Source: Protonemura montana | Taxonomy: Eukaryota > Arthropoda > Insecta > Plecoptera > Nemouridae | DNA: 64,000 nucleotides | Assembly: GCA_947568835.1 (NCBI GenBank) | Contig: OX387603.1 | Span: 932,501 to 996,500, forward strand | Direction: 5' to 3' | Part shown: positions 1,501 to 64,000 of the stretch, one piece after another | How the letters are laid out: each line of letters opens with the position of its first letter | Position numbering within the stretch: position 1 is the first letter of the stretch | Notes under the pieces: model-generated | Seen by the model: only the letters and a program-made list of their open reading frames with translations | Databases searched by the model: none | What the model was told of the DNA's origin: nothing | Position numbers and translations under genes: made by a program

Positions 1501-4500
1501 CTGCAACAACATCCTGATCAGCATCGCCATGGCTACCAAACATTGAATCTACCATTGAACCTCCTATGCTAGGCCGTGATATACCCGTGGTAACATAAGA
1601 TAGCAGAATTGAGAAGCTCTGTCAGGCGATCTCAGCATCTCCATGGCTACCAAACGTTGAATCTACCATTGAACCTCCTATGCTAGGCCATGATATACCC
1701 GTGGTAACATAAGATAGCAGAATTGAGAAGCTCTGTCAGGTGATCTCAGCATCTCCATGGCTACCAAACGTTGAATCTACCATTGAACCTTCTATGCTAG
1801 GCCGTGATATACCCGTGGTAACATAAGATAGCAGAATTGAGAAGCTCTGTCAGGCGATCTCAGCATCTCCATGGCTACCAAACATTGAATCTACCATTGA
1901 ACCTCCTATGCTAGGCCGTGATATACCCGTGGTAACATAAGATAGCAGAATTGAGAAGCTCTGTCAGGTGATCTCAGCATCTCCATGGCTAACAAACGTT
2001 GAATCTACCATTGAACCTCATATGCTAGGCCGTGATATACCTGTGGTAACATAAGATAGCAGAATTGAGAAGCTCTGTCAGGCGATCTCAGCATCTCCAT
2101 GGCTACCAAACGTTGAATCTACCATTGAACCTCCTATGCTAGGCCATGATATACCCGTGGTAACATAAGATAGCAGAATTGAGAAGCTCTGTCAGGCGAT
2201 CTCAGCATCTCCATGGCTACCAAACGTTAAATCTACCATTGAACCTCCTATGCTAGGCCATGATATACCCGTGCTAACATAAGATAGCAGAATTGAGAAG
2301 CTCTGTCAGGCGATCTCAGCATCTCCATGGCTACCAAACGTTGAATCTACCATTGAACCTCCTATGCTAGGCCATGATATACCCGTGGTAACATAAGATA
2401 GCAGAATTGAGAAGCTCTGTCAGGCGATCTCAGCATCTCCATGGCTACCAAACGTTAAATCTACCATTGAACCTCCTATGCTAGGCCATGATATACCCGT
2501 GCTAACATAAGATAGCAGAATTGAGAAGCTCTGTCAGGCGATCTCAGCATCTCCATGGCTACCAAACGTTGAATCTACCATTGAACCTCCTATGCCAGGC
2601 CGTGATTTACCTAAGTTTCACGCTGTCACCCCAGGCTATGAGCTCCCTCCTGAGGTACACTTGGCTGTCAACAGCAGCGAAGTTGGTCAACGGGTCGGAG
2701 TCCATGACCCAGCCGTTATGCGCCATCAGGAAGCGACCGCGGTCCAAGCAGAACGCTGCGGATTCCTCGGCCTCGCGGGTTGCGCCCGGCGGCAGCGGGC
2801 TCGTGAAGTAGCTGCAAGCAAAGCAACGTCGAGGTAACGATGACAGAACGTGGCTGGTATTTTCATCATTAGGAACACCAATAACCTCTCAAAAAGTGAT
2901 ATCCTATAAATGGATTTTATAGGATTTTATTTAATATATGGATTTTATCCCTTACAATAAAATACTCCACGCATATTTATCTTATCTATATATAAATACA
3001 TATCTATCTACGTAACTTGTACCTGTTACTTTATCAAGGGTAAGAGCAGTCCTGACAATTTTCCACACACATAATTGGTAAGTTAGTAAAAAATGCAAAT
3101 TTTGTCTGTATTTAATTTCAGAAAATACAAAATACGTTAGTTTTTTAGTTATTGACCCTGATTATTTTATTTAGATGCATTTAGGAAGCTTGAACTTGGT
3201 AATTGTTATAATTTTATGTGGTTCTTTTGTTATTGGAAAATTGTCAGGACTGCTCTTACCCTTGATAAAGTAACAGGTACAAGTTACGAAACGTTGGGAA
3301 ATTCAGTTGTTCTTCACTTAGCATTCAAAACCCAGTTATCATTCTTCTTCTTGCAATGCAACTGACCGTGGTACGAGGGGTTCTGTCTCCATGACAACCG
3401 GGAGCCGAGGTCCTGCAGCGTCTACGCGGAAGTATCGCACGCCAGCGACTGTGTTGTCAACGGCCGCCACCAGGTGGCAGTGAAGCTCGCGTTCGCGGCG
3501 CGCGTTCAGCTCCGTGACGTGTGATCTGAAGTCGGCCGCGCAGCGACGCAGACGAGACTCCTCGTCGAAACAATCCGACCTGGGGGCGGAGCTTAGATCA
3601 GCGGAGCTGGGGGCGGAGCTTAGATCAGCATGCTGGGGGCAGAGCTTAGATCAGCGGAGCTGGGGGCGGAGCTTAGATCAGCGGAGCTGCTCTAATACAG
3701 ATTTATCATTTGAAGCTTGGGATGTGAGAGAAGGTGGGATGGATGTGAGGAAGAGAAAGATGGATACAAGAAGTATGCGCGGATGTGATGGAAAGAGATG
3801 GGAAATGGAAAAGAGTGCGAAGAAGACGAAAAATAGTTTGGCAAAATGAAGTTAAATGCCGTAAACTAAACATTTTCTACTGGTTGTAATAAATTGGATA
3901 AAAAATTGAAAAAAAATTGAATAAAAAGAAAAGTACGCTTTATAAATTAAAGATGCGTTTACACTTTTGTGACTGCATTTTGTTTTGAAGATTTTCAGGT
4001 TTTTTTTTCTCTGAAAATTTTTTTAAAACATTTCCTAAACGACCAAAACAACCAACTTAAAATTGTTCAAAGGAGTTTGAACGAGACAAAAAATAAATGA
4101 TTTGGCAGATCATTTTGTTAATCGTAGTCAAGACCCTTTCTAGCAGATAAGATAAAAAAATATTATAATTAAATAACTAATAAAAGCTAAGATCTCGGTG
4201 GCTGTGACCGACCTGTAGATGTTATAGATGTGCAGTGCTAGCTCAAGATCAACGTCAGTCTTCCCGCGACGATACAACGCGTCCTGCCGCAGTCGAACTT
4301 CGGCTCCCTCGGGGGCGGAGTCTGCGTGCGGGAGGCGGGACCTCGCTAGCGACAGGAAGTCTGAGACGACCACCTCGATGTCAGCCAAGTACAGCTCGGA
4401 GAGAGACAACGACGGCAGAACAGAGTCCCACAGAGCAGAGCGAATTGCCTGGAGCAAAGAAACATCCAAGTTTTCATGGAGTTATTAAGGGTTGGAATTG

Positions 4501-7500
4501 AATGGTCGATTTTTTCCACCCCTAAACATGATAAGTAAACAATTAATGTATTTTTCTTTTTAATTAAAGCACGGTTTTCATTTTAGAACAAGTCCCAACC
4601 TTTTAAGTTTATTTGTTCAAACGCTAGAGTGAATATAGTGAATGGAATGTGAATGGAATGACACATTTCCTTATGAGGAAACAGGATTTTCTAAAAAATT
4701 TTAATTTTCAAGAGTGAAAGGTCCGAGTGACACGAAAAAATGAGTCAGTAAAACAATCTTTGGAGCAACAATAATTTTTAAAATTTTAAAATTATATAAT
4801 CTCTGAATTTTCCGGTGATTTGCATGGTCCATACTCAACAAACACATGAAGAAACACAACTAAATGCACACACATCTATACAATAAAATAATTATAACTT
4901 CTGATCTTACGGCTGTTAATGATTCATTTTCTATCAATGAAGAGATAATAAGCAGGAGATGCTTGAAAAAAAAACGCGTTAAGAAATAAAAATTACTTCT
5001 TGAGTTATTAAAGGTTGAAATTTAATGGTTGATTTTTTCCACCCCTAAACTTGATAAGTAAGCAATTAATGTAAATTTTTCTTGTTAATTGAAGCACGAT
5101 TATCATTTCAGAACAAGTCTTATCCTTTTAAGTTTATTTGTTCAAACGCTGGAGTGAATACAGTGAATGGCCGTGCTAAGTTTACGTCAAGTAGAAGTAG
5201 TATTTTCTTCAACTGTTAACAAAGCCGCGTTGTTTTGTTGTTTTGTTGTCATGGCAACTCACGTTCAGATGTTCCTCTGTGTTAACAGCTGTTGGGACCC
5301 CGCGGTGGCTCCAGTCGCCCCGCGCCACCTGGATACTGAACGTAGACAGCGCAGCGTCCAACAGGTACGCCGGGCGCAGGTGGGGACAGTTGGCGCAGTT
5401 GTACGTTGCTTCCGGGTGCAGTGACAGCCACGGAGTCTCGTTGGCCGTGTGATTCAGTACAATGTCACACACTGATAACATCTGGAGGCAACAAGTGAAA
5501 GGATATTTAACGATTTAACAGGTGAGGGAGATTTTAAATGGAATATTTCATTCGAAATCTGTCCTAAACTAACCTAACCTAACCTAACCTAACCTAACCT
5601 AACCTAACCTAACCTAACTTCATGCTTTGCCACCCCTCCTTCCCCTCCTCCCATCCTCTCTACTCTCCATGAGTTGCACACAAATTCTTTAGAACGACAA
5701 TAAATTGACAAAATGTCCAACAAGTGTTTTGCAATGAGTTGACAGTGAAACAAACAGATGAAGCTCTAACCTTCCAGTCGCAGCGTAGTTTGTTGACAAC
5801 CGCGTCCACGTCGTCCATGACAACCGGTCGTTGACCGGCGGTCGCTAGACCCGGGTTCAATGTCAGCTGATCCTTCAAGCTGTACGAAGAGTTGGACCCA
5901 CCGAGCTCCTGAGGACACAACGCAGACAAACAATTCAGCGGCTTCCATATACCTGGCATACGTTGGTTAGAGCAACACCCGCGACAAGTTAGGTTAGGTT
6001 CGAGTACCTCTGTGGACAATAACTTTGCAAGAGATTATTAGTTATTGTAATTATAGAGAGTATTATTCTAATAGTCTAAATGAACGAACGATGTGCATTA
6101 GACTGTGTACCCTAGATTATCTAGGCATAGGATATATGCTCTGGAACTGCCGGATAAAAAACTTTTTAACACAAAATATTTTTTTTCCTGAAAAGTTGTC
6201 GAGGGCCAATTCTGAATTTTGGCACAAATATTCATTCATATGTTGTCAGCATTAAACAATTTTTTTTAGGTAAATTAAAGAGAGAGTTTTTTTTCAGTGG
6301 TCTTTTTTTAAAATGCCAATGTAGAAAATCAAGATAAAATTTCTGTCCACCAAGTGGTACGTACTGTAATATATTCAAGTAGAGAATTGAATTAGCTTTC
6401 AGATGAGCTCTCCTGGAACTCTGTAGCTGTCCACCAAGTGGTACATATTATAATATATTCAAGTAGAGAATTGAATTAGCTTTCAGATGAGCTCTCCTGG
6501 AACTCTGTAGCCGTCCACCAAGTGGTACATATTATAATATATTCAAGTAGAGAATTGAATTAGCTTTCAGATGAGCTCTCCTGGAACTCTGTAGCTGTCC
6601 ACCAAGTGGTACATATTATAATATATTCAAGTAGAGAATTGAATTAGCTTTCAGATGAGCTCTCCTGGAACTCTGTAGCTGTCCACCAAGTGGTACATAT
6701 TATAATATATTCAGGTAGAGAATTGAATTAGCTTTCAGATGAGCTCTCCTGGAACTCTGTAGCTGTCCACCAAGTGGTACATATTATAATATATTCAAGT
6801 AGAGAATTGAATTAGCTTTCAGATGAGCTCTCCTGGAACTCTGTAGCTGTCCACCAAGTGGAACATATTATAATATATTCAAGTAGAGAATTGAATTAGC
6901 TTTCAGATGAGCTCTCCTGGAACTCTGTAGCTGTCCACCAAGTGGTACATATTATAATATATTCAAGTAGAGAATTGAATTAGCTTTCAGATGAGCTCTC
7001 CTGGAACTCTGTAGCTGTCCACCAAGTGGTGCATATTATAATATATTCAAGTAGAGAATTGAATTAGCTTTCAGATGAGCTCTCCTGGAACTCTGTAGCC
7101 GTCATACAAGCCTAGATAATGTATATAATGTGACGGTGATACGCGCGCGGGGGGTGAAAACGCATGAACTTTAACCCCCTGTAACGTTTGAACTCTTCAA
7201 GTAAAAAAAAAAAAAAAAAAATCTTTGTACTCAAACCAACATTGTTAACAAGTGCACCGAATTTCATGATATTCCGAGTTGATCAAGCTCAAAATTAATT
7301 TCAAGTGCCTCCTATTAGACATGGAATGTCCTATGTGCTATGTAGCTATGTAGCTATGTAGCTATGTAGCTATGTAGCTATGTAGCTATGTAGCTATGTA
7401 GCTATGTACCTATGTAGCTATGTAGCTATGTAGCTATGTAGCTATGTAGCTATGTAGCTATGTAGCTATGTACCTATGTGGCTATGTGCTATGTAGCTAT

Positions 7501-10462
7501 GTAGCTATGTAGCTATGTAGCTATGTACCTATGTAGCTATGTAGCTATGTGCTATGTAGCTATGTAGCTATGTAGCTATGTACCTATGTAGCTATGTGCT
7601 ATGTAGCTATGTACCTATGTAGCTATGTAGCTATGTGCTATGTAGCTATGTAGCTATGTGCTATGTAGCTATGTAGCTATGTAGCTATGTAGCTATGTAG
7701 CTATGTAGCTATGTAGCTATGTAGCTATGTAGCTATGTAGCTATGTAGCTATGTAGCTATGTGCTATGTAGCTATGTAGCTATGTAGCTATGTAGCTATG
7801 TAGCTATGTAGCTATGTAGCTATGTAGCTATGTAGCTATGTAGCTATGTAGCTATGTAGCTATGTAGCTATGTAGCTATGTAGCTATGTGGCTATGAAGC
7901 TATGTAGCTATGTGGCTATGTAGCTATGTGGCTATGTAGCTATGAAGCTATGTAGCTATGAAGGTTTGTCTTCCTGTACCTGGATTGGGGTGAAGTGAAT
8001 CATGTTGTACCCGGATTCCTTCGTGACCTTCAGCTTGTCGAGCCAGGAGTCCAAGGGGCCGAGACTCTTGACAAGCACCGTCTGGCACTGAACGCAGTCC
8101 AGCGGCAGCCGGTCGTTGCCGGTCGACCCGTAGCCGAGCACCGGCTCCACAGTGAAGTAGCCGGATCCCCGGCTGCTGGGATCGCTGGAACAAACGCCAC
8201 GTCGTTGTTTCCAGACTCATGTCTACTTGATGTAAACTTAGCACTAGTTTTAACAAAAACTATTTCAACTGGGTTTTTAATGCTAAGTGAAGAACAACTA
8301 AATTTCCCAACGTTTCGTAACTTGTACCTGTTACTTTATCAAGGGTAAGAGCAGTCCTGACAATTTTCCGATAGCAAAAGAACCACATAAAATTATTACA
8401 ATTACTTAGTTCAAGCTTCCTAAATGCATCTAAATAAAATAATCAGGGTCAATAACTCAAAAACTAACGTATTTTGTATTTTCTGAAATAAAATCACGAA
8501 CACATTGGCGTTTTTTACTAACTAACCAATTGTGTGTATGGAAAAAACTCATGTATTTTAATATTTCTGATTTCTCTGAACATGCCTATGGTTTAACAAA
8601 AGCAACTTTAATTGGTTTATGAATACTAAGTAAAGAACAACTAAATTTCCCATGCTGGGTCCATTCAATTTATACAAAATTATCAATTTTTGTAAATCTG
8701 AAATTGTTACAAAACTGTTAGATCGATTCTGCTGAAAATCGCTGGGTTTCAAAGTTGAAGTAACGGAAACGTGCTCTGCAAATTTGGTGCAAATCGAAGC
8801 AGACGTTTGGCCGGAACAGCGCAAAGAAAATTACAAAAAAATCTAAAACAAAACACGACTAATTATTTATTTTCCTGTGTACCTGGATCCCGCATAGGTG
8901 AAGTAGAAGTGGAAGCTTCCGGCGCGGTTGATCTCAAGGTCAGCGAACGCAGCCGAGTCGTCTGCGCCGCGAGCCGCCGCGTCGTGTTTCCATGGCAACG
9001 TACGGTAGCGCGCGCGGTCGAACTCTGCCGCCGCGGTCGCCGGGAGATTGCAGAACAACGACAGCGACTTTCCAAACAGAGACGGGCCGGGACGGAACTG
9101 CAAGCGCCAACCTGACCCCAACAAAACATATATACTTCCCAATGATTCTCTGTAGTTGAACATATATACTTCCCACTGATGCTCTGTAGTTGAACATATA
9201 TACTTCCCACTGATGCTCTGTAGTTGAACATATATACTTCCCACTGATGCTCTGTAGTTGAACACATATACTTCCCACTGATGCTCTGTAGTCGAACATA
9301 TATACTTCCCACCGATGCTCTGTAGTTGAACATATATACTTCCCACTGATGCTCTGTAGTTGAACATATATACTTCCCACTGATGCTCTGTAGTTGAACA
9401 TATATACTTCCCACTGATGCTCTGTAGTTGAACATATATACTTCCCACTGATGCTCCGTAGTTGAACATATATACTTCCCACCGATGCTCTGTAGTTGAA
9501 CATATATACTTCCCACTGATGCTCTGTAGTTGAACATATATACTTCCCACTGATGCTCTGTAGTTGAACATATATACTTCCCACTGATGCTCTGTAGTTG
9601 AACATATATACTTCCCACTGATTCTCTGTAGTTGAACATATATACTTCCCACCGATGCTCTGTAGTTGAACATATATACTTCCCACTGATACTCTGTAGT
9701 TGAACATACATACTTCCCACTGATGCTCTGTAGTTGAACATATATACTTCCCACTGATGCTCTGTAGTTGAACATATATACTTCCCACTGATGCTCTGTA
9801 GTTGAACATATATACTTCCCACTGATGCTCTGTAGTTGAACATATATACTTCCCACTGATGCTCTGTAGTTGAACATATATACTTCCCACTGATGTTCTG
9901 TAGTTGAACATATATACTTCCCAATGATGCTCTGTAGTTGAACATATATACTTCCCACTGATGCTCTGTAGTTGAACATATATACTTCCCACTGATGCTC
10001 TGTAGTTGAACATATATACTTCCCACTGATGCTCTGTAGTTGAACATATATACTTCCCACTGATGCTCTGTAGTTGAACATATATACTTCCCACTGATGC
10101 TCTGTAGTTGAACATATATACTTCCCACTGATGCTCTGTAGTTGAACATATATACTTCCCACTGATGCTCTGTAGTTGAACATATATACTTCCCACTGAT
10201 GCTCTGTAGTTGAACATATATACTTCCCACTGATGCTCTGTAGTTGAACACATATACTTCCCACTGATGCTCTGTAGTTGAACATATATACTTCCAACGT
10301 AATACGAGGCTCACCTTTGCACAGCCGGAAGAGCGTTGAGTCAAGATTTTCTCCGTCGTTTAGAGTCAATACTCGGACTTGACCGCCGTCACCGCGTGGG
10401 GCATTGCCTAGGCACTCAAAGTCGGGGCCCAGCGCAGCTAGGCTCTGTCTCCGTGACAACAT
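383..10462 (-). CDS. AGL: Glycogen debranching enzyme, N-terminal half (11 coding exons; 3' part lies beyond the left edge)
   Basis: Bifunctional cytosolic enzyme with 4-alpha-glucanotransferase and amylo-1,6-glucosidase activities, which removes glycogen branches. Coding exons in transcript order: 10315-10462, 8883-9111, 7980-8184, 5771-5908, 5263-5481, 4213-4448, 3367-3579, 2611-2811, 1371-1500, 1023-1146, 383-648. All have GT-AG borders and closed phases, giving 703 codons; animal AGL proteins are about 1,500 residues, so the glucosidase half is missing here. Recognisable blocks are [53 protein letters not shown] and [10 protein letters not shown]. By GH13 logic the nucleophile is Asp of RLDN (about residue 562), the acid/base is Glu of AELF (about 591), and the third carboxylate is Asp of THDN (about 663). 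The start ATG at 10462 is the first Met after a good acceptor at 10481-10482 (CCCTTCCAG on the sense strand), so an upstream 5' UTR exon is likely. Nearly every intron holds a tandem array or dispersed repeat. Confidence 0.95.
703..861 (-). mobile_element. Penelope-like dispersed element, copy 1
   Basis: Minus-strand 3' part of the dispersed family described at 21541: contains TTGATAAAGTAACAGG and CGAAACGTTGGGAAATTC on the sense strand of the element, then the TTAGCATT...AAGTAGACATGAGTCTGG end. Lies in an AGL intron. Confidence 0.7.
949..1010. repeat. 10-bp G-rich array (AGGGGTGGGA)n
   Basis: Six copies of a G-rich decamer about 12 bases after the AGL donor at 1022-1021, so the pre-mRNA strand is C-rich (CCCACCCCTT). 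The DNA plus strand could form G-quadruplexes. Confidence 0.9.
1514..2610. repeat. 114-bp satellite, AGL intron
   Basis: About 9.6 units of 114 bp, almost identical, filling the intron between exons 2611-2811 and 1371-1500. On the sense strand the intron begins GTAAATCACGGCCTGGC, which aligns base for base with the internal unit GTATATCACGGCCTAGC, so the array starts exactly at the donor. Two more units occur in GLDC at 49347-49575. Confidence 0.95.
3012..3352. mobile_element. Penelope-like element, inverted pair
   Basis: A short minus-strand fragment (3012-3060) is followed at once by a nearly full plus-strand copy (3064-3352), a foldback arrangement. The plus copy has TTATTGGAAAATTGTCAGG, CCCTTGATAAAGTAACAGG and CGAAACGTTGGGAAATTC. 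Confidence 0.75.
3580..3693. repeat. 27-bp array of splice-acceptor-like units, AGL intron
   Basis: Four copies of a 27-bp unit. On the AGL sense strand each unit ends CTCCGCCCCCAG; the last copy supplies the acceptor used by exon 3367-3579. So four equivalent pyrimidine-tract/AG sites lie in a row before the exon. Confidence 0.85.
4484..5171. repeat. Diverged direct duplication inside an AGL intron
   Basis: Segments 4484-4646 and 4998-5171 are direct repeats (shared GATTTTTTCCACCCCTAAAC, TTTAAGTTTATTTGTTCAAA and GTGAATGG) with scattered differences. No coding sequence lies between. Could be an old segmental duplication or a degraded element with terminal repeats. Confidence 0.75.
5573..5618. 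repeat. (AACCT)n, arthropod-type telomere motif
   Basis: About nine perfect AACCT repeats, the complement of TTAGG+T phase, in the AGL intron between exons 5771-5908 and 5263-5481. TTAGG is the usual arthropod telomere repeat; here it is interstitial. Confidence 0.9.
6344..7106. repeat. 84-bp satellite, AGL intron
   Basis: Nine near-identical 84-bp units beginning TGTCCACCAAGTGGTAC and ending AACTCTGTAGC. The core CCACCAAGTGG is near-palindromic. Shares the intron with the 8-bp array at 7334. Confidence 0.95.
7334..7964. repeat. 8-bp array (TATGTAGC)n, AGL intron
   Basis: About 78 copies with occasional TATGTACC and shortened TATGTGC variants. On the sense strand it begins about 15 bases after the donor of exon 7980-8184. 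Closely related to the TATGTACC array in LMBRD2 at 17192. Confidence 0.95.
8207..8665 (-). mobile_element. Penelope-like element, long copy plus fragment
   Basis: Minus-strand copy from the ACATGAGTCTGGAAAC end at 8207-8222 through the hammerhead-like region (8308-8350) and the TTTAGATGCATTTAGGAAGC segment to the TTAGTTAGTAAAAAACGCC end near 8525; a second, more diverged 3' piece lies at about 8590-8665. In an AGL intron. Confidence 0.75.
9124..10297. repeat. 34-bp satellite, AGL intron 1
   Basis: About 34 units of 34 bp fill the intron between exons 10315-10462 and 8883-9111 apart from some 15 bases at each end. On the sense strand each unit holds GTATATATG and TTCAACTACAG, which look like donor and acceptor motifs. 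The unit lacks minus-strand stops in all three frames, producing long spurious reading frames. Confidence 0.95.
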
Positions 10463-15013: not shown

Positions 15014-18000
15014 CTAGACGTCGTCGAAGAGCCCTCTGGGCGGTGGACCGACCCTGCCATGGAACGCCAGGTCGTCGTGATCGGAGGGCAGGTCCTGGTA
15101 TCCGGGCCCCGAGTAGGACAAGTCCGAGCCGTGGCTGGACGCGGTGCCGGTGTTGGCCGAGTAGTCCGTCGGCTCGACGTCGCCCAGGAGACCGGCACGC
15201 GCAGACTCCAGCGAATCCTCGCGGTGCACTCCACGAACTGCAACAGATGAGGGTCAAGGACGGGGCTTCTTGGCTTACAGACAAAAATTGATGCCCAAAC
15301 GCGGACTCGAACCCCGATCTCCACCTGTCGCGGGTGTTGCTCTAACCAATTGAGCTACTTGGACACTGGCTTATTGAGACAATTTTAGTGTATTTGATGA
15401 GAATGACAGTTCTCCAAGGAGTAGAACCAAGAGGCTGTGAATACTCACAGTCACTCTGATTCTAGTGACGCTATATCACGTCACAACCTGTCAAACTCGA
15501 ATAACTCCAATTTGATGTTGAATTCGTTGCTGTATTTTAGATGAAATCTTGCTTGGTGGTTGTCAGCATCAAATTGTGTTCAATAAATTCAAGAAATACG
15601 GAGGACATCGCATCAACTACATTGGCAAAGCTCTAGAGCTTGAAACCAATCATCTTCTCCGGTACGTACCGCGATCCTCCTGCTTCGGCGTCCGGTAGCG
15701 CGTTCCAAATCGCTGGTGGAAGTCTCGTCGCCGTAGCAACGAATCCTCCATCCGTTGCAACCTCCGCTTCTCTGAGGAAACATTATTACCAGGAGTCAAA
15801 CACAAAGTAACAACTGGCTGGGTCCTATGTTCTATTAAGATTATTTGAGATCAGCTGGCTGGATCCTATGCTCTATCCAGGTTATTTGAGATCAGCTGGC
15901 TGGATCCTATGCTCTATCCAGGTTATTTGAGATTAGCTGGCTGGATCCTATGCTCTATACAGGTTATTTGAGATCAGCTGGCTGGATCCTATGCTCTATC
16001 CAGGTTATTTGAGATCAGCTGGCTGGATCCTATGCTCTATCCAGGTTATTTGAGATCAGCTGGCTGGATCCTATGCTCTATCCAGGTTATTTGAGATCAG
16101 CTGGCTGGATCCTATGCTCTATCCATGTTATTTGAGATCAGCTGGCTGGATCCTATGCTCTATCCAGGTTATTTGAGATCAGCTGACTGGATCCTATGCT
16201 CTATCCAGGTTATTTGAGATCAGCTGGCTGGATCCTATGCCCTATCCAGGTTATTTGAGATCAGCTGGCTGGATCCTATGCTCTATCCAGGTTATTTGAG
16301 ATCAGCTGGCTGGATCCTATGCTCTATCTAGGTTATTTGAGATCAGCTGGCTGGATCCTATGCTCTGTCCAGGTTATTTGAGATCAGCTGACTGGGTCCT
16401 ATGCTCTATCCAGGTTATTTGAGATCAGCTGGCTGGATCCTATGCCCTATCCAGGTTATTTGAGATCAGCTGACTGGATCCTATGCTCTATCCAGGTTAT
16501 TTGAGATCAGCTGGCTGGATCCTATGCTCTATCCAGGTTATTTGAGATCAGCTGGCTGGATCCTATGCTCTATCCAGGTTATTTGAGATCAGCTGGCTGG
16601 ATCCTATGTTCTATCTAACCTCGCTTGATGAGTTCTCGTCCCTCGTCCACCAGTTCCGCGGTGATGGCGTCATCGCCCACGAACTGCTGCCAGCCGACGA
16701 AGGAGAGAAGTCGGGAGCCGAGCTTGTAGTACGTTGCGAGACAGAAGGCAAGCATCGTCATCGGGAAGTAGACGTTGAAGCCGTCCGAGATTATTGCGAT
16801 CACGTCCATGTGACCCATCACCTGCGGACAGAGCGGCGTTGCAATCGTGCGAAGCAAGTAAAAATCGTTTCCCCGTTTTTAATTTGTTTAGGGCTCTAGC
16901 GACCAAATCTTTGCTCCGATTTTAACCAAATTTGCTGAGCACATTTCAGTTTATTTTACTCACTCTTCCTGTAATTTTCAGCAAAATCGGTCGAACAGTT
17001 CCGTTGATATTTCAAAAATGTATAAAAATTTTCAGGTTTTGTAATAAAAAGCCAAAAGTTTTTGATATTTTTTCACTTAACTTTGTAAATATGTGATATA
17101 GCAAATAAGAAGTTGTGCATTTTATGAATTTTTTCTGTTCTGTTTTGATCTTTACAATGAATCGGCTTCACATTTTATCATCCAGGTTAGGTTACCTATG
17201 TACCCATGTACCTATGTACCTATGTACCTATGTACCTATGTACCTATGTACCTATGTACCTATGTACCTGTGTACCTGTGTACATATGTACCTACGTACC
17301 TATGTACCCATGTACCTATGTACCTATGTACCTATGTACCCATGTACCTATGTACCTATGTGCCTATGTACCTATGTACCTATGTACCTATGTACCTATG
17401 TACCTACGTACCTATGTACCTATGTACCCATGTACCTATGTACCTATGTACCTATGTACCTATGCACCTATGTACCTATGTACCTATGTACCTATGTACC
17501 TATGTACCTATGTACCCATGTACCTATGTACCTATGTGCCTATGTACCTATGTACCTATGTACCTATGTACCTATGTACCTATGTACCTATGTACCTATG
17601 TACCCATGTACCTATGTACCTATGTGCCTATGTACCTATGTACCCATGTACCTATGTACCTATGTACCTATGTACCTATGTACCTATGTACCTATGTACC
17701 TATGCACCTATGTACCTATGTACCTTTGTACCTATGTACCTATGTACCCATGTACCTATGTACCTATGTGCCTATGTACCTATGTACCTATGTACCTATG
17801 TACCTATGTACCTATGTACCTATGTACCTATGTACCCATGTACCTATGTACCTATGTGCCTATGTACCTATGTACCTATGTACCTATGTACCTATGTACC
17901 TATGTACCTATGTACCTATGTGCCTATGTGCCTATGTACCTCACCACATTGCAGCAAATGCACATTTGTTAGAGAAAAATAAATACAACTAAGATCAAGC

Positions 18001-21000: not shown

Positions 21001-24000
21001 GTGGAGTGAAGATAGGTTGGTTGAGGGGGACTCCGATGCCAGTCTCTTCTCTCCAGTAATAAAGACAACGATGAAAACATTAACAAACAATGTTTTTGGG
21101 TTTTCTGGCATTTCCACTCGGGAGCTTAAACCAGCAAGCGGATGATGGAAATGTATGTTTGTAAAATTGTACACTTAAGTAAACTTGCAATTTTTGCAAA
21201 TTTTTCATCAAAATTTTTGCTTTTTGTCAAAATTTGGTAACATTTGTGAAATCGACTTTCAGCAAAATTTCACCGCTGTCAACTTTGACGAGAGCTCAAG
21301 TTAAATCGGGAGAGTTGTCAGTTAAATAGTAAAGAATTCATACCCCAATTAAATTACTTACAATACAAAGCGCATGACAATCAAAAATATCGTAAGTGAA
21401 TACATGTATGGAGATAATATATCTCCCACTGAACGGTTTAACGGGTTTAACAGGGTCCAGAATTTCCCCCCCGGGTGTGGACACCCTGACCACCCAATGC
21501 AAAATGTTACATTCAGCAAGCAAAAATATGGCGTTTTTTCCATACACATAATTAGTTAGTTAAAAAACTCCAATATGTTCGAGATCTTATTTCAGAAAAT
21601 ACATAATACATTAGTTTTTGAGTTATTGACCCTGATTATTTTATTTAGATGCATTTAGGAAGCTTGAACTTGGTAATTGTTATAATTTTATGTGGTTCTT
21701 TTGTTATTGGAAAATTGTCAGGACTGCTCTTACCCTTGATAAAGCAACAGGTACAAGTTACGAAACGTTGGGAAATTTAGTTGTTCTTCACTTAGCATTG
21801 AAAACCCATTTGAAATAGTTTTTGTTAAAACTAGTGCTAAGTTTACATCAAGTAGACATGAGTCTAAAAACATTCAAGTTTCAAAGAAGTTCCAAAAAGA
21901 TTTGAAAATAAATCACAAATACTGTAGAAATGCATAAAGACATAATGACTCGAGTTTTTGGGGAAAGTAAACTCCCACACAGGTGTTTCGATATAAGTAG
22001 ACTTGGGCTACTTCGTTGTCAGTTTAAAGTTTAAAATGGGAGAGTTGGGTTACCTCGATGGCGAAGTAGTCGTAGTCTGTCTTGGCGAGATCGAAGAGGA
22101 TTGCAAACAACGACAGAACCGGCTTCTTGTTGAAGAACGTAACCTCAGACCAGACGACGGCGGCAGAAAGGAGACCGCAAGCCACCGCCGACGCTTTCAG
22201 TACGTAGCCGTGGAGCACACAGCGCCAGTACCACTCTGTAATCAACATACAACGTACAGGGCTCAGTGCTTTCAAGAAAAAAAAAAAAATAATAAATAAC
22301 GACTAATTTTTCCTGACGTTTTTGTAAGTTAAAATTGGAAAATTGTCAGGACTGCTTAAACCCTTGATAAAGTAACAGGTACAAGTGATGAAACGTTGGG
22401 AAATTCAGTTGTTCTTCACTTAGCATTCAAAACCCAGTTGAAATAGTTTTTGTTTATTAAATAGTTTCAAATAATTAAGGATGAAAGTTAAGCATCACTG
22501 CGCTGGGTCAGGTATTGGATGGGTGACCATCATACACATGACCAGTTCTGTTCGGGAGAGAGGTTAGAGGGATGAAAGTTAAGCAACACTGCGCTGAGTC
22601 AGGTATTGGATGGGTGACCATCATACACATGACCAGTTCTGTTCGGGAGAGAGGTTGGAGGGATGAAAGTTAAGCAACACTGCGCTGGGTCAGGTATTGG
22701 ATGGGTGACCATCATACACATGACCAGTTCTGTTCGGGAGAGAGGTTGGAGGGATGAAAGTTAAGCAACACTGCACTGGGTCAGGTATTGGATGGGTGAC
22801 CATCATACACATGACCAGTTCTGTTCGGGAGAGAGGTTAGAGGGATGAAAGTTAAGCAACACTGCGCTGGGTCAGGTAATGGATGGGTGACCATCATACA
22901 CATGGCCAGTTCTGTTCGGGAGAGAGGTTGGAGGGATGAAAGTTAAGCAACACTGCGCTGAGTCAGGTATTGGATGGGTGACCATCATACACATGACCAG
23001 TTCTGTTCGGGAGAGAGGTTGGAGGGATGAAAGTTAGTACAGCAACTTCACTCGCCTTGCTTATCAACCTCTCGACAGCATGGATTTGTGGAGGAATCCT
23101 GTTGTTCGCGTTGTACCGTCCTTCGGAAGGGACGTTAAGCTGGTGGTCCCCTTGGTCTTCGACAGGAGTAGGCTACGTGCCGGCACCGGGTTTCCCCTCC
23201 TCCCTTCTAGGCTAGGTTAGGTTCATCATCATCCACTCATTCACCGACGCCATCAGACCAGCGCCACATGGAGCTACTCACCAAGAGCTGGGCAACGCGG
23301 CAGGATGCCCGGGTTTGTCCGGGCGAAGGTCGGCTGGTAGCGACGCTCGTGTCCGACCTGGTTGCGTGCAACGTCCTCGAGGTCGATGACCCTCGCAGCC
23401 AGGAGGCGCCACTGAGTCTCCGTTCGTTGCAAAGCTTGCAGCGCACGCATTGCCTTGACAACAACAACAATAACAACAATTATAAAATCTTACAAAAACT
23501 ATTTCAACTGGGTTTTCAATGCTAAGTGAAGAACAACTGAATTTCCCAACGTTTTGTAACTTGCAGCTGTTACTTTATCAAGGGTAAGAGCAGTCCTGAC
23601 AATTTTCCAATAACAAAAGAACCACACAAAATTATAACAATTACCAAGTTCAAGCTTCCTAAATGCAACTAAATAATTGTTATCGGAAAATTGTCAGGAC
23701 TGCTCTAACCCTTGATAAAGTAACAGGTACAAGTTACGAAACGTTGGGAAATTCAGTTGTTCTTCACTTAGCATTGAAAACCCAGTTGAAATAGTTTTTG
23801 TTAAAACAAGTGCTAAGTTTACATCAAGTAGACATGAGACTGGAACAATCATTATAAAATCTATTTAGCATTACAGCATATTTTACTACTATTTCAACCA
23901 AATATTCATCTATTATTATTATTATTATTTATTCTCATACTTAGGCTTGGTACATGTTCTCATGCAAGTTCTCAGAGTAATAGGAAAGTACATTTCTGTT

Positions 24001-34944: not shown

Positions 34945-49719
<14,775 letters not shown>

Positions 49720-50779: not shown

Positions 50780-51005
50780 TAACAAAAACTATTTCAACAG
50801 GGTTTTGAATGCTAAGTGAAGAACAACTGAATTTCCCAACGTTTCGTAACTTGTACCTGTTACTTTATCAAGGGTAAGAGCAGTCCTGACAATTTTCCAA
50901 TAACAAAAGAACCACATAAAATTATAACAATTACCAAGTTCAAGCTTCCTAAATGCATCTAAATAAAATAATTTGTAAAAAATAATTTTGTGTGGTTCTT
51001 TTGTT
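50780..51005 (-). mobile_element. Penelope-like element copy
   Basis: Minus-strand copy through the conserved block to AAATTATTTTATTTAGATGC, then a short inverted scrap (TTTTGTGTGGTTCTTTTG) at about 50985-51005. Confidence 0.72.
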
Positions 51006-51794
51006 ATCACGGCAGAAAGGACGACGAGGGAAGAAGGTAAATAAAAAGACAATCGGCAGAGTTCGACCTACGTATTCCAGCACGAACAAACTGCCTCAAT
51101 AATAAAAACAACAACAACAAGAACAAGAACAAAAGCGTGTCACCGAAGTCACATCCCCAGAGATTCCGTCGACAAAGTTCGTATGAAAACAGTTGGATCG
51201 AGGGCGGCCATCTTGTGACACGCGCAAAACAAAGCGGTGGTCGCCTGGCAACCGCCGGCTAAAGCGTGAGCCGCGTACAAAAAAAAAGTCGCAAGCGAAA
51301 TCGCAAACGAAAAAGAAAACCGCACCGCGATTGTCTCGAGGACAAAAACGAACAAATCAAAACCGCGAATGTGTAGAGCAAAGCCGTCTAAAAAACAGAG
51401 CCATGACATCGCCATGGCAACGTCATTGTCGCGGTCGTCATCGGCCGCAGCTTGGCGACGGAACGACGAGCGAGGAAAGCTGAAAATCACTAAACTAACG
51501 AAACACTGCCATCTGGTGGCCACCAAAGTCAAGCAGACGAACCACATTCAAGTCAACGTATCTCAGAGGCACTGGTTCGTCACTGTCTTCTCATTTCAAC
51601 CGCACAAGATGTCCAAACTAAAAACAAAGGCACAACGATCAACCTGGCGGTGACCAAAAAGTGCCAACATCATCATCCTTGTTCCAATGTTTTGCAACTA
51701 ATTGATTAATAGTATTAACTAATTACTGACATTGCCATCTGGCCAAGTGGCACTGGTCACATCACTCCGCCTGGCTTGCCCACCAGGTGGCAGC

Positions 51795-62094
<10,300 letters not shown>

Positions 62095-62298: not shown

Positions 62299-64000
62299 TC
62301 TATGCTCTATCCAGGTTATTTGAGATCAGCTGGCTGGATCCTATGCTCTATCCAGGTTATTTGAGATCAGCTGACTGGGTTCTATGCTCTATCCAGGTTA
62401 TTTGAGATCAGCTGGCTGGATCCTATGCTCTATCCAGGTTATTTGAGATCAGCTGGCTGGATCCTATGCTCTATCCAGGTTATTTGAGATCAGCTGGCTG
62501 GATCCTATGCTCTATCCAGGTTATTAGAGATCAGCTGACTAGATCCTATGCTCTATCCAGGTAATTTGAGATCAGCTGGCTGGATCCTATGCTCTATCCA
62601 GGTTATTTGAGATCAGCTGACTGGATCCTATGCTCTATCCAGGTTATTTGAGATCAGCTGACTGGATCCTATACTCTATCCAGGTTATTTGAGATCAGCT
62701 GGCTGGATCCTATGCTCTATCCAGGTTATTTGAGATCAGCTGGCTGGATCCTATGCTCTATCCAGGTTATTAGAGATCAGCTGGCTGGATCCTATGCTCT
62801 ATCCAGGTTATTTGAGATCAGCTGACTGGATCCTATGCTCTATCCAGGTAATTTGAGATCAGCTGGCTGGATCCTATGCTCTATCCAGGTTATTTGAGAT
62901 CAGCTGACTGGATCCTATGCTCTATCCAGGTTATTTGAGATCAGCTGACTGGATCCTATACTCTATCCAGGTTATTTGAGATCAGCTGGCTGGATCCTAT
63001 GCTCTATCCAGGTTATTTGAGATCAGCTGGCTGGATCCTATGCTCTATCCAGGTTATTTGAGATCAGCTGACTGGATCCTATGCTCTATCCAGGTTATTT
63101 GAGATCAGCTGGCTGGATCCTATGCTCTATCCAGGTTATTTGAGATCAGCTGGCTGGATCCTATGCTCTATCCAGGTTATTTGAGATCAGCTGGCTGGAT
63201 CCTATGCTCAATCCAGGTTATTTGAGATCAGCTGGCTGGATCCTTTGCTCTATCCAGGTTATTTGAGATCAGCTGGCTGGATCCTATGCTCTATCCAGGT
63301 TATTTGAGATCAGCTGGCTGGATCCTATGCTCTATCCAGGTTATTTGAGATCAGCTGACTGGATCCTATGCTCTATCCAGGTTATTTGAGATGAGCTGGC
63401 TGGATCCTATGCTCTATCCAGGTTATTTGAGATGAGCTGGCTGGATCCTATGCTCTATCCAGGTTATTTGAGATCAGCTGGCTGGATCCTTTGCTCTATC
63501 CAGGTTATTTGAGATCAGCTGACTGGATCCTATGCTCTATCCAGGTTATTTCAGATCAGCTGGCTGGATCCTATGCTCTATCCAGGTTATTTAAGATCAG
63601 CTGGCTGGATCCTATGCTCTATCCAGGTTATTTGAGATCAGCTGACTGGATCCTATGCTCTATCCAGGTTATTTGAGATGAGCTGGCTGGATCCTATGCT
63701 CTATCCAGGTTATTTGAGATGAGCTGACTGGATCCTATGCTCTATCCAGGTTATTTGAGATCAGCTGGCTGGATCCTTTGCTCTATCCAGGTTATTTGAG
63801 ATCAGCTGGCTGGATCCTATGCTCTATCCAGGTTATTTAAGATCAGCTGGCTGGATCCTATGCTCTATCCAGGTTATTTGAGATCAGCTGGCTGGATCCT
63901 ATGTTCTATACAGGTTATTTGAGATCAGCTGGCTGGATCCTATGCTCTATCCAGGTTATTTGAGATCAGCTGACTGGATCCTATGCTCTAACCAGGTTAT
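62299..64000. repeat. 41-bp satellite, PKC intron, runs off the right edge
   Basis: At least 41 units of the family also seen at 15836, 41615 and 51950, with mixed sub-types (GGCTGGATCC, GACTGGATCC, GAGATGAGC) arranged in higher-order blocks. Confidence 0.95.

Follow-up and report, generated by a model that had tools for sequence, protein, structure and literature searches.

Satellite DNA reportedly lies inside introns of expressed genes in Drosophila, where spermatocyte genes carry satellite-containing giant introns. In the euchromatin of Tribolium castaneum, TCAST-like elements are dispersed tandem elements, 29 of 68 of them in introns; according to the available part of that report, some sit inside a DNA-transposon-like unit with TIRs, homogenisation does not differ significantly by local array or chromosome, and rolling-circle replication with re-integration has been proposed (PMC3411249). 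The accessible sections of a review describe tandem repeats borne by MITEs, for example Xstir of Xenopus and satellites of the oyster and other bivalves (PMC6947457). Introners, as portrayed in the available excerpt of a third study, are DNA-transposon-like, have edges that coincide with splice sites and make new introns (PMC9860276).

Here we describe arrays of a 41-bp unit, found in a 64-kb stretch of DNA (hereafter the window, C2:932501-996500) from a genome of 258 Mb in 34 contigs. Like the TCAST-like elements, these arrays are dispersed, intronic, TIR-linked and not homogenised by locus. Unlike them, as they appear in the part of the report available (up to tetramers, and tied to the major pericentromeric satellite), the 41-bp arrays reach more than 40 copies, their unit is itself the TIR end and some make up nearly a whole intron (PMC3411249). 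They share with Xstir and the bivalve satellites the property of riding on or deriving from MITEs, and differ in filling introns, which the accessible sections of the review do not mention (PMC6947457). They depart from introners, as described in the available excerpt, in that start phase varies and at least the position of the PKC intron is old (PMC9860276). A literature search turned up no account of introns occupied by arrays as far as their splice signals, which is not proof of absence.

Arrays of one 41-bp unit in three genes

Tandem repeats take up much of the window: TRF returned 42 rows, and the 31 main arrays sum to 25.5 kb of the 64 kb. Four of these arrays have a 41-bp unit and lie in introns of GLDC, PKC and a gene that we take to be LMBRD2 (LMBRD2-like below). 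Coordinates are from TRF, and distances to splice sites, where given for both ends, are from a spliced reading of the genes:

15814-16615, plus strand: 19.6 copies in the LMBRD2-like gene (minus strand), within an intron of 848 nt (about 15772-16619); 4 nt of non-array sequence on the donor side and 42 nt on the acceptor side
41618-42512, minus strand: 21.8 copies within GLDC intron 41613-42541; 5 nt of non-array sequence on the donor side and 29 nt on the acceptor side
51950-52964, minus strand: 24.9 copies within PKC intron 51942-52968 (gene on the minus strand); 4 nt of non-array sequence on the donor side and 8 nt on the acceptor side
62300-64000, plus strand: at least 41.5 copies, continuing past the end of the window, in the PKC intron that precedes the C1-domain exon; only the 3' side is visible, with the acceptor about 200 nt away

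Allowing up to 3 mismatches, a 21-mer of the unit had 106 matches in the window, every one of them within these four arrays or at their edges, compared to none in 100 shuffles. The original prediction that the four arrays share one unit, and that in three of them the first unit joins within five bases of GT (4 nt in the LMBRD2-like gene, 5 nt in GLDC and 4 nt in PKC), is thus upheld; its array starts were correct to within 22 bases, the largest shift being in the first array, which begins at 15814 and not at 15836.

Introns filled by arrays of unrelated families

Introns consisting almost entirely of tandem repeats are not special to the 41-bp family. Four further arrays in the window, from three other families, fill introns of AGL and GLDC:

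1518-2611, minus strand: 114-bp array filling AGL intron 1501-2610; -1 nt left at the donor, 17 nt at the acceptor
9125-10295, minus strand: 34-bp array filling a 1203-nt AGL intron; 19 nt left at the donor, 13 nt at the acceptor
49342-49573, plus strand: 114-bp array filling GLDC intron 49327-49608; 15 + 35 nt left
49094-49147, plus strand: 14-bp array of about four copies in a 108-nt GLDC intron; 21 + 33 nt left

When exons were joined across arrays, the spliced reading gave open, matching proteins. The joined sequences matched PDB entries for GLDC (E = 6.3e-43) and PKC (E = 1.6e-21), in both cases across the junction, and for NPC1, the gene at locus L047 (E = 9.9e-25), and AGL at the 114-bp array matched the Pfam family hDGE_amylase (E = 6.1e-49). 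Pfam gave no match for the LMBRD2-like exon pair or for loci L034 and L045.

Altogether we list eight filled introns from four unrelated families (41, 114, 34 and 14 bp), each with 12-54 nt of non-array sequence: 12 nt in PKC, 16 in AGL with the 114-bp array, 21 in NPC1, 32 in AGL with the 34-bp array, 34 in GLDC with the 41-bp array, 46 in the LMBRD2-like gene, and 50 and 54 in GLDC with the 114-bp and 14-bp arrays. Loci L034 (38 nt) and L045 (58 nt) were kept out of this list because they had been noticed through their donors, and both, like NPC1, come from regions chosen for arrays. The PKC intron with a 91-bp array retains 140 nt.

A homology-based pass over AGL, GLDC, PKC and NPC1 kept 22 of 23 introns, with AGL intron 8173-8882 left out for its poor junction and two AGL gaps left out because they did not resolve. 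Of the introns kept, 14 held arrays, five of these being filled and nine having flanks of 140 to 1037 nt; the other eight, 86-1019 nt long, were free of arrays. Arrays of 91, 52, 29, 45 and 20 bp in these four genes did not fill their introns. There are thus two kinds of array intron, one with the array set within ordinary flanks and one that is almost only array. Filled introns were also compared with array-free ones by a Mann-Whitney test, which was set aside as circular, the groups having been drawn by the same measure.

Intron length bears on the explanation that expansion was only local: slippage and unequal exchange would have built a separate array at each MITE end or in each short intron, and small ancestral introns would have brought the edges near splice sites by chance. 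In its favour, remnants of 46, 50 and 54 nt are close to the minimal length of an animal intron, and the 108-nt GLDC intron contains a four-copy 14-bp array. Against such purely local expansion, all eight array-free introns are longer than every filled remnant, with the proviso that the exon search may miss short ones. Three of the filled introns (12, 16 and 21 nt of non-array sequence) fall below the usual length of an animal intron, a point against the model favoured below.

The unit is one end of a MITE-like element

Genome-wide, a 38-mer of the 41-bp unit had 27,961 matches (14,400 + 13,561, up to 3 mismatches), and the reversed 38-mer, used as a control, had no genome-wide match. As a sample we took twenty stretches of contig C1, each of about 10 kb, surrounding exact unit matches among the first listed. 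In these, TRF and inspection identified 24 arrays, chosen by exact unit match and not by gene; with the four in the window this made 28 arrays. Arrays of this one unit occurred at many loci, introns included, as is characteristic of a dispersed satellite.

A degenerate shared body of roughly 250-300 bp adjoined 12 of the 28 arrays (at locus L040 by eye only), and its far end resembled the reverse complement of the end of the 41-bp unit. Two complete elements, picked as pairs of exact terminus matches facing each other, display the full structure. One (L051) has matching TIRs, CACTGATCTCAAATAACC, at both ends of about 295 bp in all and contains one unit, marked by a direct repeat with a spacing of 41 bases (CTGATC, with CTGTTC as the second copy); the other (L052) has the same TIRs at both ends and seven units at one of them. 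The terminus matched 657 places genome-wide (up to 1 mismatch), as befits a short element with many dispersed copies. No clear target-site duplication was seen beside L051 or L052, so transposition is deduced from the TIRs. The 41-bp unit is the TIR-bearing end of a roughly 300-bp, non-autonomous, MITE-like DNA transposon.

The body lay beside 0 of 7 arrays near donors compared to 12 of 21 others, the groups having been drawn by eye. At L046 the body is on one side of the array and a likely acceptor lies 13 nt from the other edge (by eye), so that array-only and intron-edge arrays are not cleanly separate.

On contigs C1-C4, 25 of the 28 terminus copies among the exact matches listed were in the outer 20% at either end, as were 21 of the 23 array places on C1. 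The opposite held on C12-C14 (8 of 42 in the outer 20% among the matches listed, with C12 and C13 mostly interior), and for the seven contigs of known length, pooled from the first 100 of the 657 matches, 33 of 70 were in the outer 20% (40% expected, P = 0.14). A bias of arrays to chromosome ends was dropped on these grounds.

Units are alike across loci and element bodies have diverged

The consensus unit was the same over all 41 bases in 29 of 30 loci, with L037 differing at one base. Mean identity of 41-bp units between loci was 0.935, within the span of within-locus values (0.870-0.986). We extended the comparison to other families by sorting 92 arrays of at least 150 bp into 35 groups, 26 of them with a single array, and scoring eight of the nine multi-array groups (the unscored group being two arrays). 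Within- and between-locus identities were nearly equal in all eight: 0.943/0.940 for the 41-bp family (27 loci); 0.953/0.944 for the 91-bp family, which had the largest gap, was alignable at 17 of 21 arrays (window and C1 regions) and showed locus differences of 0 to 4 bases; and, resting on 2 to 4 loci each, 0.956/0.954 for 52 bp, 0.983/0.981 for 73 bp, 0.967/0.960 for 68 bp, 0.927/0.941 for 49 bp, 0.935/0.941 for 31 bp and 0.976/0.978 for 114 bp. There is little or no homogenisation at the level of the locus, as in dispersed euchromatic satellites.

The element bodies have diverged. Their identity to the consensus was 0.707-0.851 in 11 aligned copies and 0.732-0.825 in the 8 best-aligned of the 12 bodies adjoining sampled arrays (17-27% diverged); four of the twelve were only 0.56-0.65 identical to the consensus, the body alignments being rough. 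Changes were mostly private to each body (pairwise identity 0.664, compared to 0.628 expected if all were private). Across eight loci the far TIR agreed at 8 to 23 of its 25 bases, and at two of the eight it was no better than shuffles.

An array grown from its own aged end should carry fixed locus-specific changes. Such changes were not found, only 0 or 1 of the 41 bases differing per locus across 30 loci, and the arrays therefore seem to have come by copying from a shared pool. Duplicated units do occur inside some arrays, and within-locus identity is slightly greater than between-locus identity in several families, as purely local expansion would have it; on balance we consider it rather unlikely as the whole explanation. 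Selection on the TIR for transposition could explain part of the likeness of the units, with the bodies diverging as subfamilies. Gene conversion, one of three mechanisms originally put forward, fares better than the other two (below): the unit data favour copying or exchange between loci, for which conversion would be one conceivable route.

Start phase and donor signals at array edges

The remaining two mechanisms of the original prediction were splice-site-targeted insertion and reverse splicing of an excised, array-bearing RNA, and we assessed both from the position of array edges. By eye, the donor-side starts of seven 41-bp arrays fell at unit positions 27 and 28 in forward orientation and 2, 4, 39, 19 and 24 in reverse, giving four same-orientation pairs within 5 nt compared to 3.0 expected (P = 0.31); a mild start-phase preference may be compatible with so small a number (n = 7). 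In the C1 sample, four of the 24 arrays were near a recognisable donor (L034, L042, L045 and L047) and 20 were not, and for two more, the array at L046 and one array at L031, a likely acceptor follows the array end at 13 and 38 nt (by eye).

We next counted GTAAGT within 30 nt of arrays genome-wide and found seven matches (4 + 3) facing into arrays and four (1 + 3) facing away; one inward and one outward match lie inside the same array (L053), and one inward match is the PKC array of the window. Only donors of the consensus form, beside a 12-mer that is intact, enter this count, which missed L042 for example, and it so bounds the donor effect without measuring it. Scoring of the 48 C1 array edges with a donor matrix gave inward donors at 2-21 nt in six cases at score 6, compared to 2.1 expected and three outward (P about 0.02), two of the six lying at the wrong edge of introns that had been counted before; the corresponding figures were 6 compared to 3.7 at score 5 (P = 0.17) and 3 compared to 1.4 at score 7 (P = 0.16). 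For all families together, window included, inward donors at 2-16 nt were present at 15 of 176 edges, compared to five outward (score 6). Strong donor enrichment at arrays is absent.

Either process would account for the three of four window arrays that begin within 5 nt of GT, for the excess of inward donors at C1 edges at score 6 and for the inward majority among edges of all families. Both are at odds with the inconstant junction, the varied orientation, the nearly balanced genome-wide GTAAGT count, the presence of TIR termini at some array edges (L034, L040 and L045), the element body adjoining 12 of 28 arrays, an intron position in PKC that predates its array and the fact that unrelated families abut donors too. 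We regard either process as extremely unlikely. That array starts would be unrelated to splice sites, the outcome named at the outset as contrary to these mechanisms, holds for most arrays examined, though not for all.

Age of the PKC intron

In protein alignment, the junction that the PKC array spans, PFKPRV|THALD, falls opposite PYKPKA|RDKRD in PKC beta I, where the sequence of PKC beta II is PYKPKA|CGRNA. PKC beta I and beta II are splice forms of one human gene, PRKCB, and the junction of the array intron is the point at which they part. The position is thus shared with human PRKCB and old, and the array invaded it later.

The same alignment bears on the idea that the element acts as an introner, inserting into exons and itself becoming the intron. 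Such an element would account for the DNA-transposon TIRs and for the arrays that, in several genes, run flush to the splice sites. Its borders should be constant, however, and the seven donor-side starts occupy seven unit positions in both orientations; moreover, most sampled C1 arrays are away from any recognisable donor, and the position of the PKC intron is not new. An introner origin is therefore, in our judgement, very unlikely.

A model for array-filled introns

The explanation that we favour, and consider probable, combines an origin from a MITE end, copying of arrays from a pool and filling of introns limited by selection, with no aiming at splice sites. One TIR-bearing end of a short, non-autonomous, MITE-like transposon supplied the 41-bp unit, and the six-base direct repeat CTGATC/CTGTTC, 41 bases apart, probably seeded its tandem duplication, presumably by slippage. 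Spread and renewal would then have involved whole arrays, copied from locus to locus out of a pool that is homogeneous across the genome, with ectopic conversion, break-induced copying or re-integration of repeat circles as candidate routes. Within an intron, an array could displace everything from the donor hexamer to the acceptor region, flanking intron sequence presumably being lost during or after insertion, and insertion or replacement would be limited by selection on the splice signals. Since the splice signals are all that selection retains, array edges would come to adjoin them without any need for aiming.

A bolder version, which we hold tentatively and think doubtful as it stands, is that old introns are overwritten by mobile minisatellites of several families, such that only the donor hexamer and a short acceptor stub stay and the repeat supplies the branch point as well as almost all of the intron sequence. 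If arrays do move as arrays, replacing all but about 12 nt, these introns would be a natural test of minimal intron needs, and the genome would show how repeat arrays enter genes. The near-equality of within- and between-locus identity in eight families would offer a way to separate circles, conversion and break-induced copying.

Other repeats in the window

Arrays of the 91-bp family occupy 22479-23036, 44843-45938, 48380-48925, 54045-54447 and 58420-59644. The 91-bp unit seems to resemble a stretch of 5S rRNA, but a search of the window with Rfam at gathering thresholds returned no 5S rRNA match. The 52-bp array at 46191-46504 overlaps a tRNA-model match (46172-46244, minus strand), and this family may therefore derive from a tRNA or a tRNA-derived SINE. 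A second tRNA-model match (15292-15364, minus strand, 40.7 bits) is close to the LMBRD2-like exons. A dispersed repeat with a recurring 22-residue translation is present on both strands, at 3162-3362, 8263-8442, 50792-51067 and 55400-55579. Finally, in AGL introns, pentamer (71-373), 10-bp (950-1009) and octamer (7331-7960) arrays start 9, 13 and 19 nt past donors.
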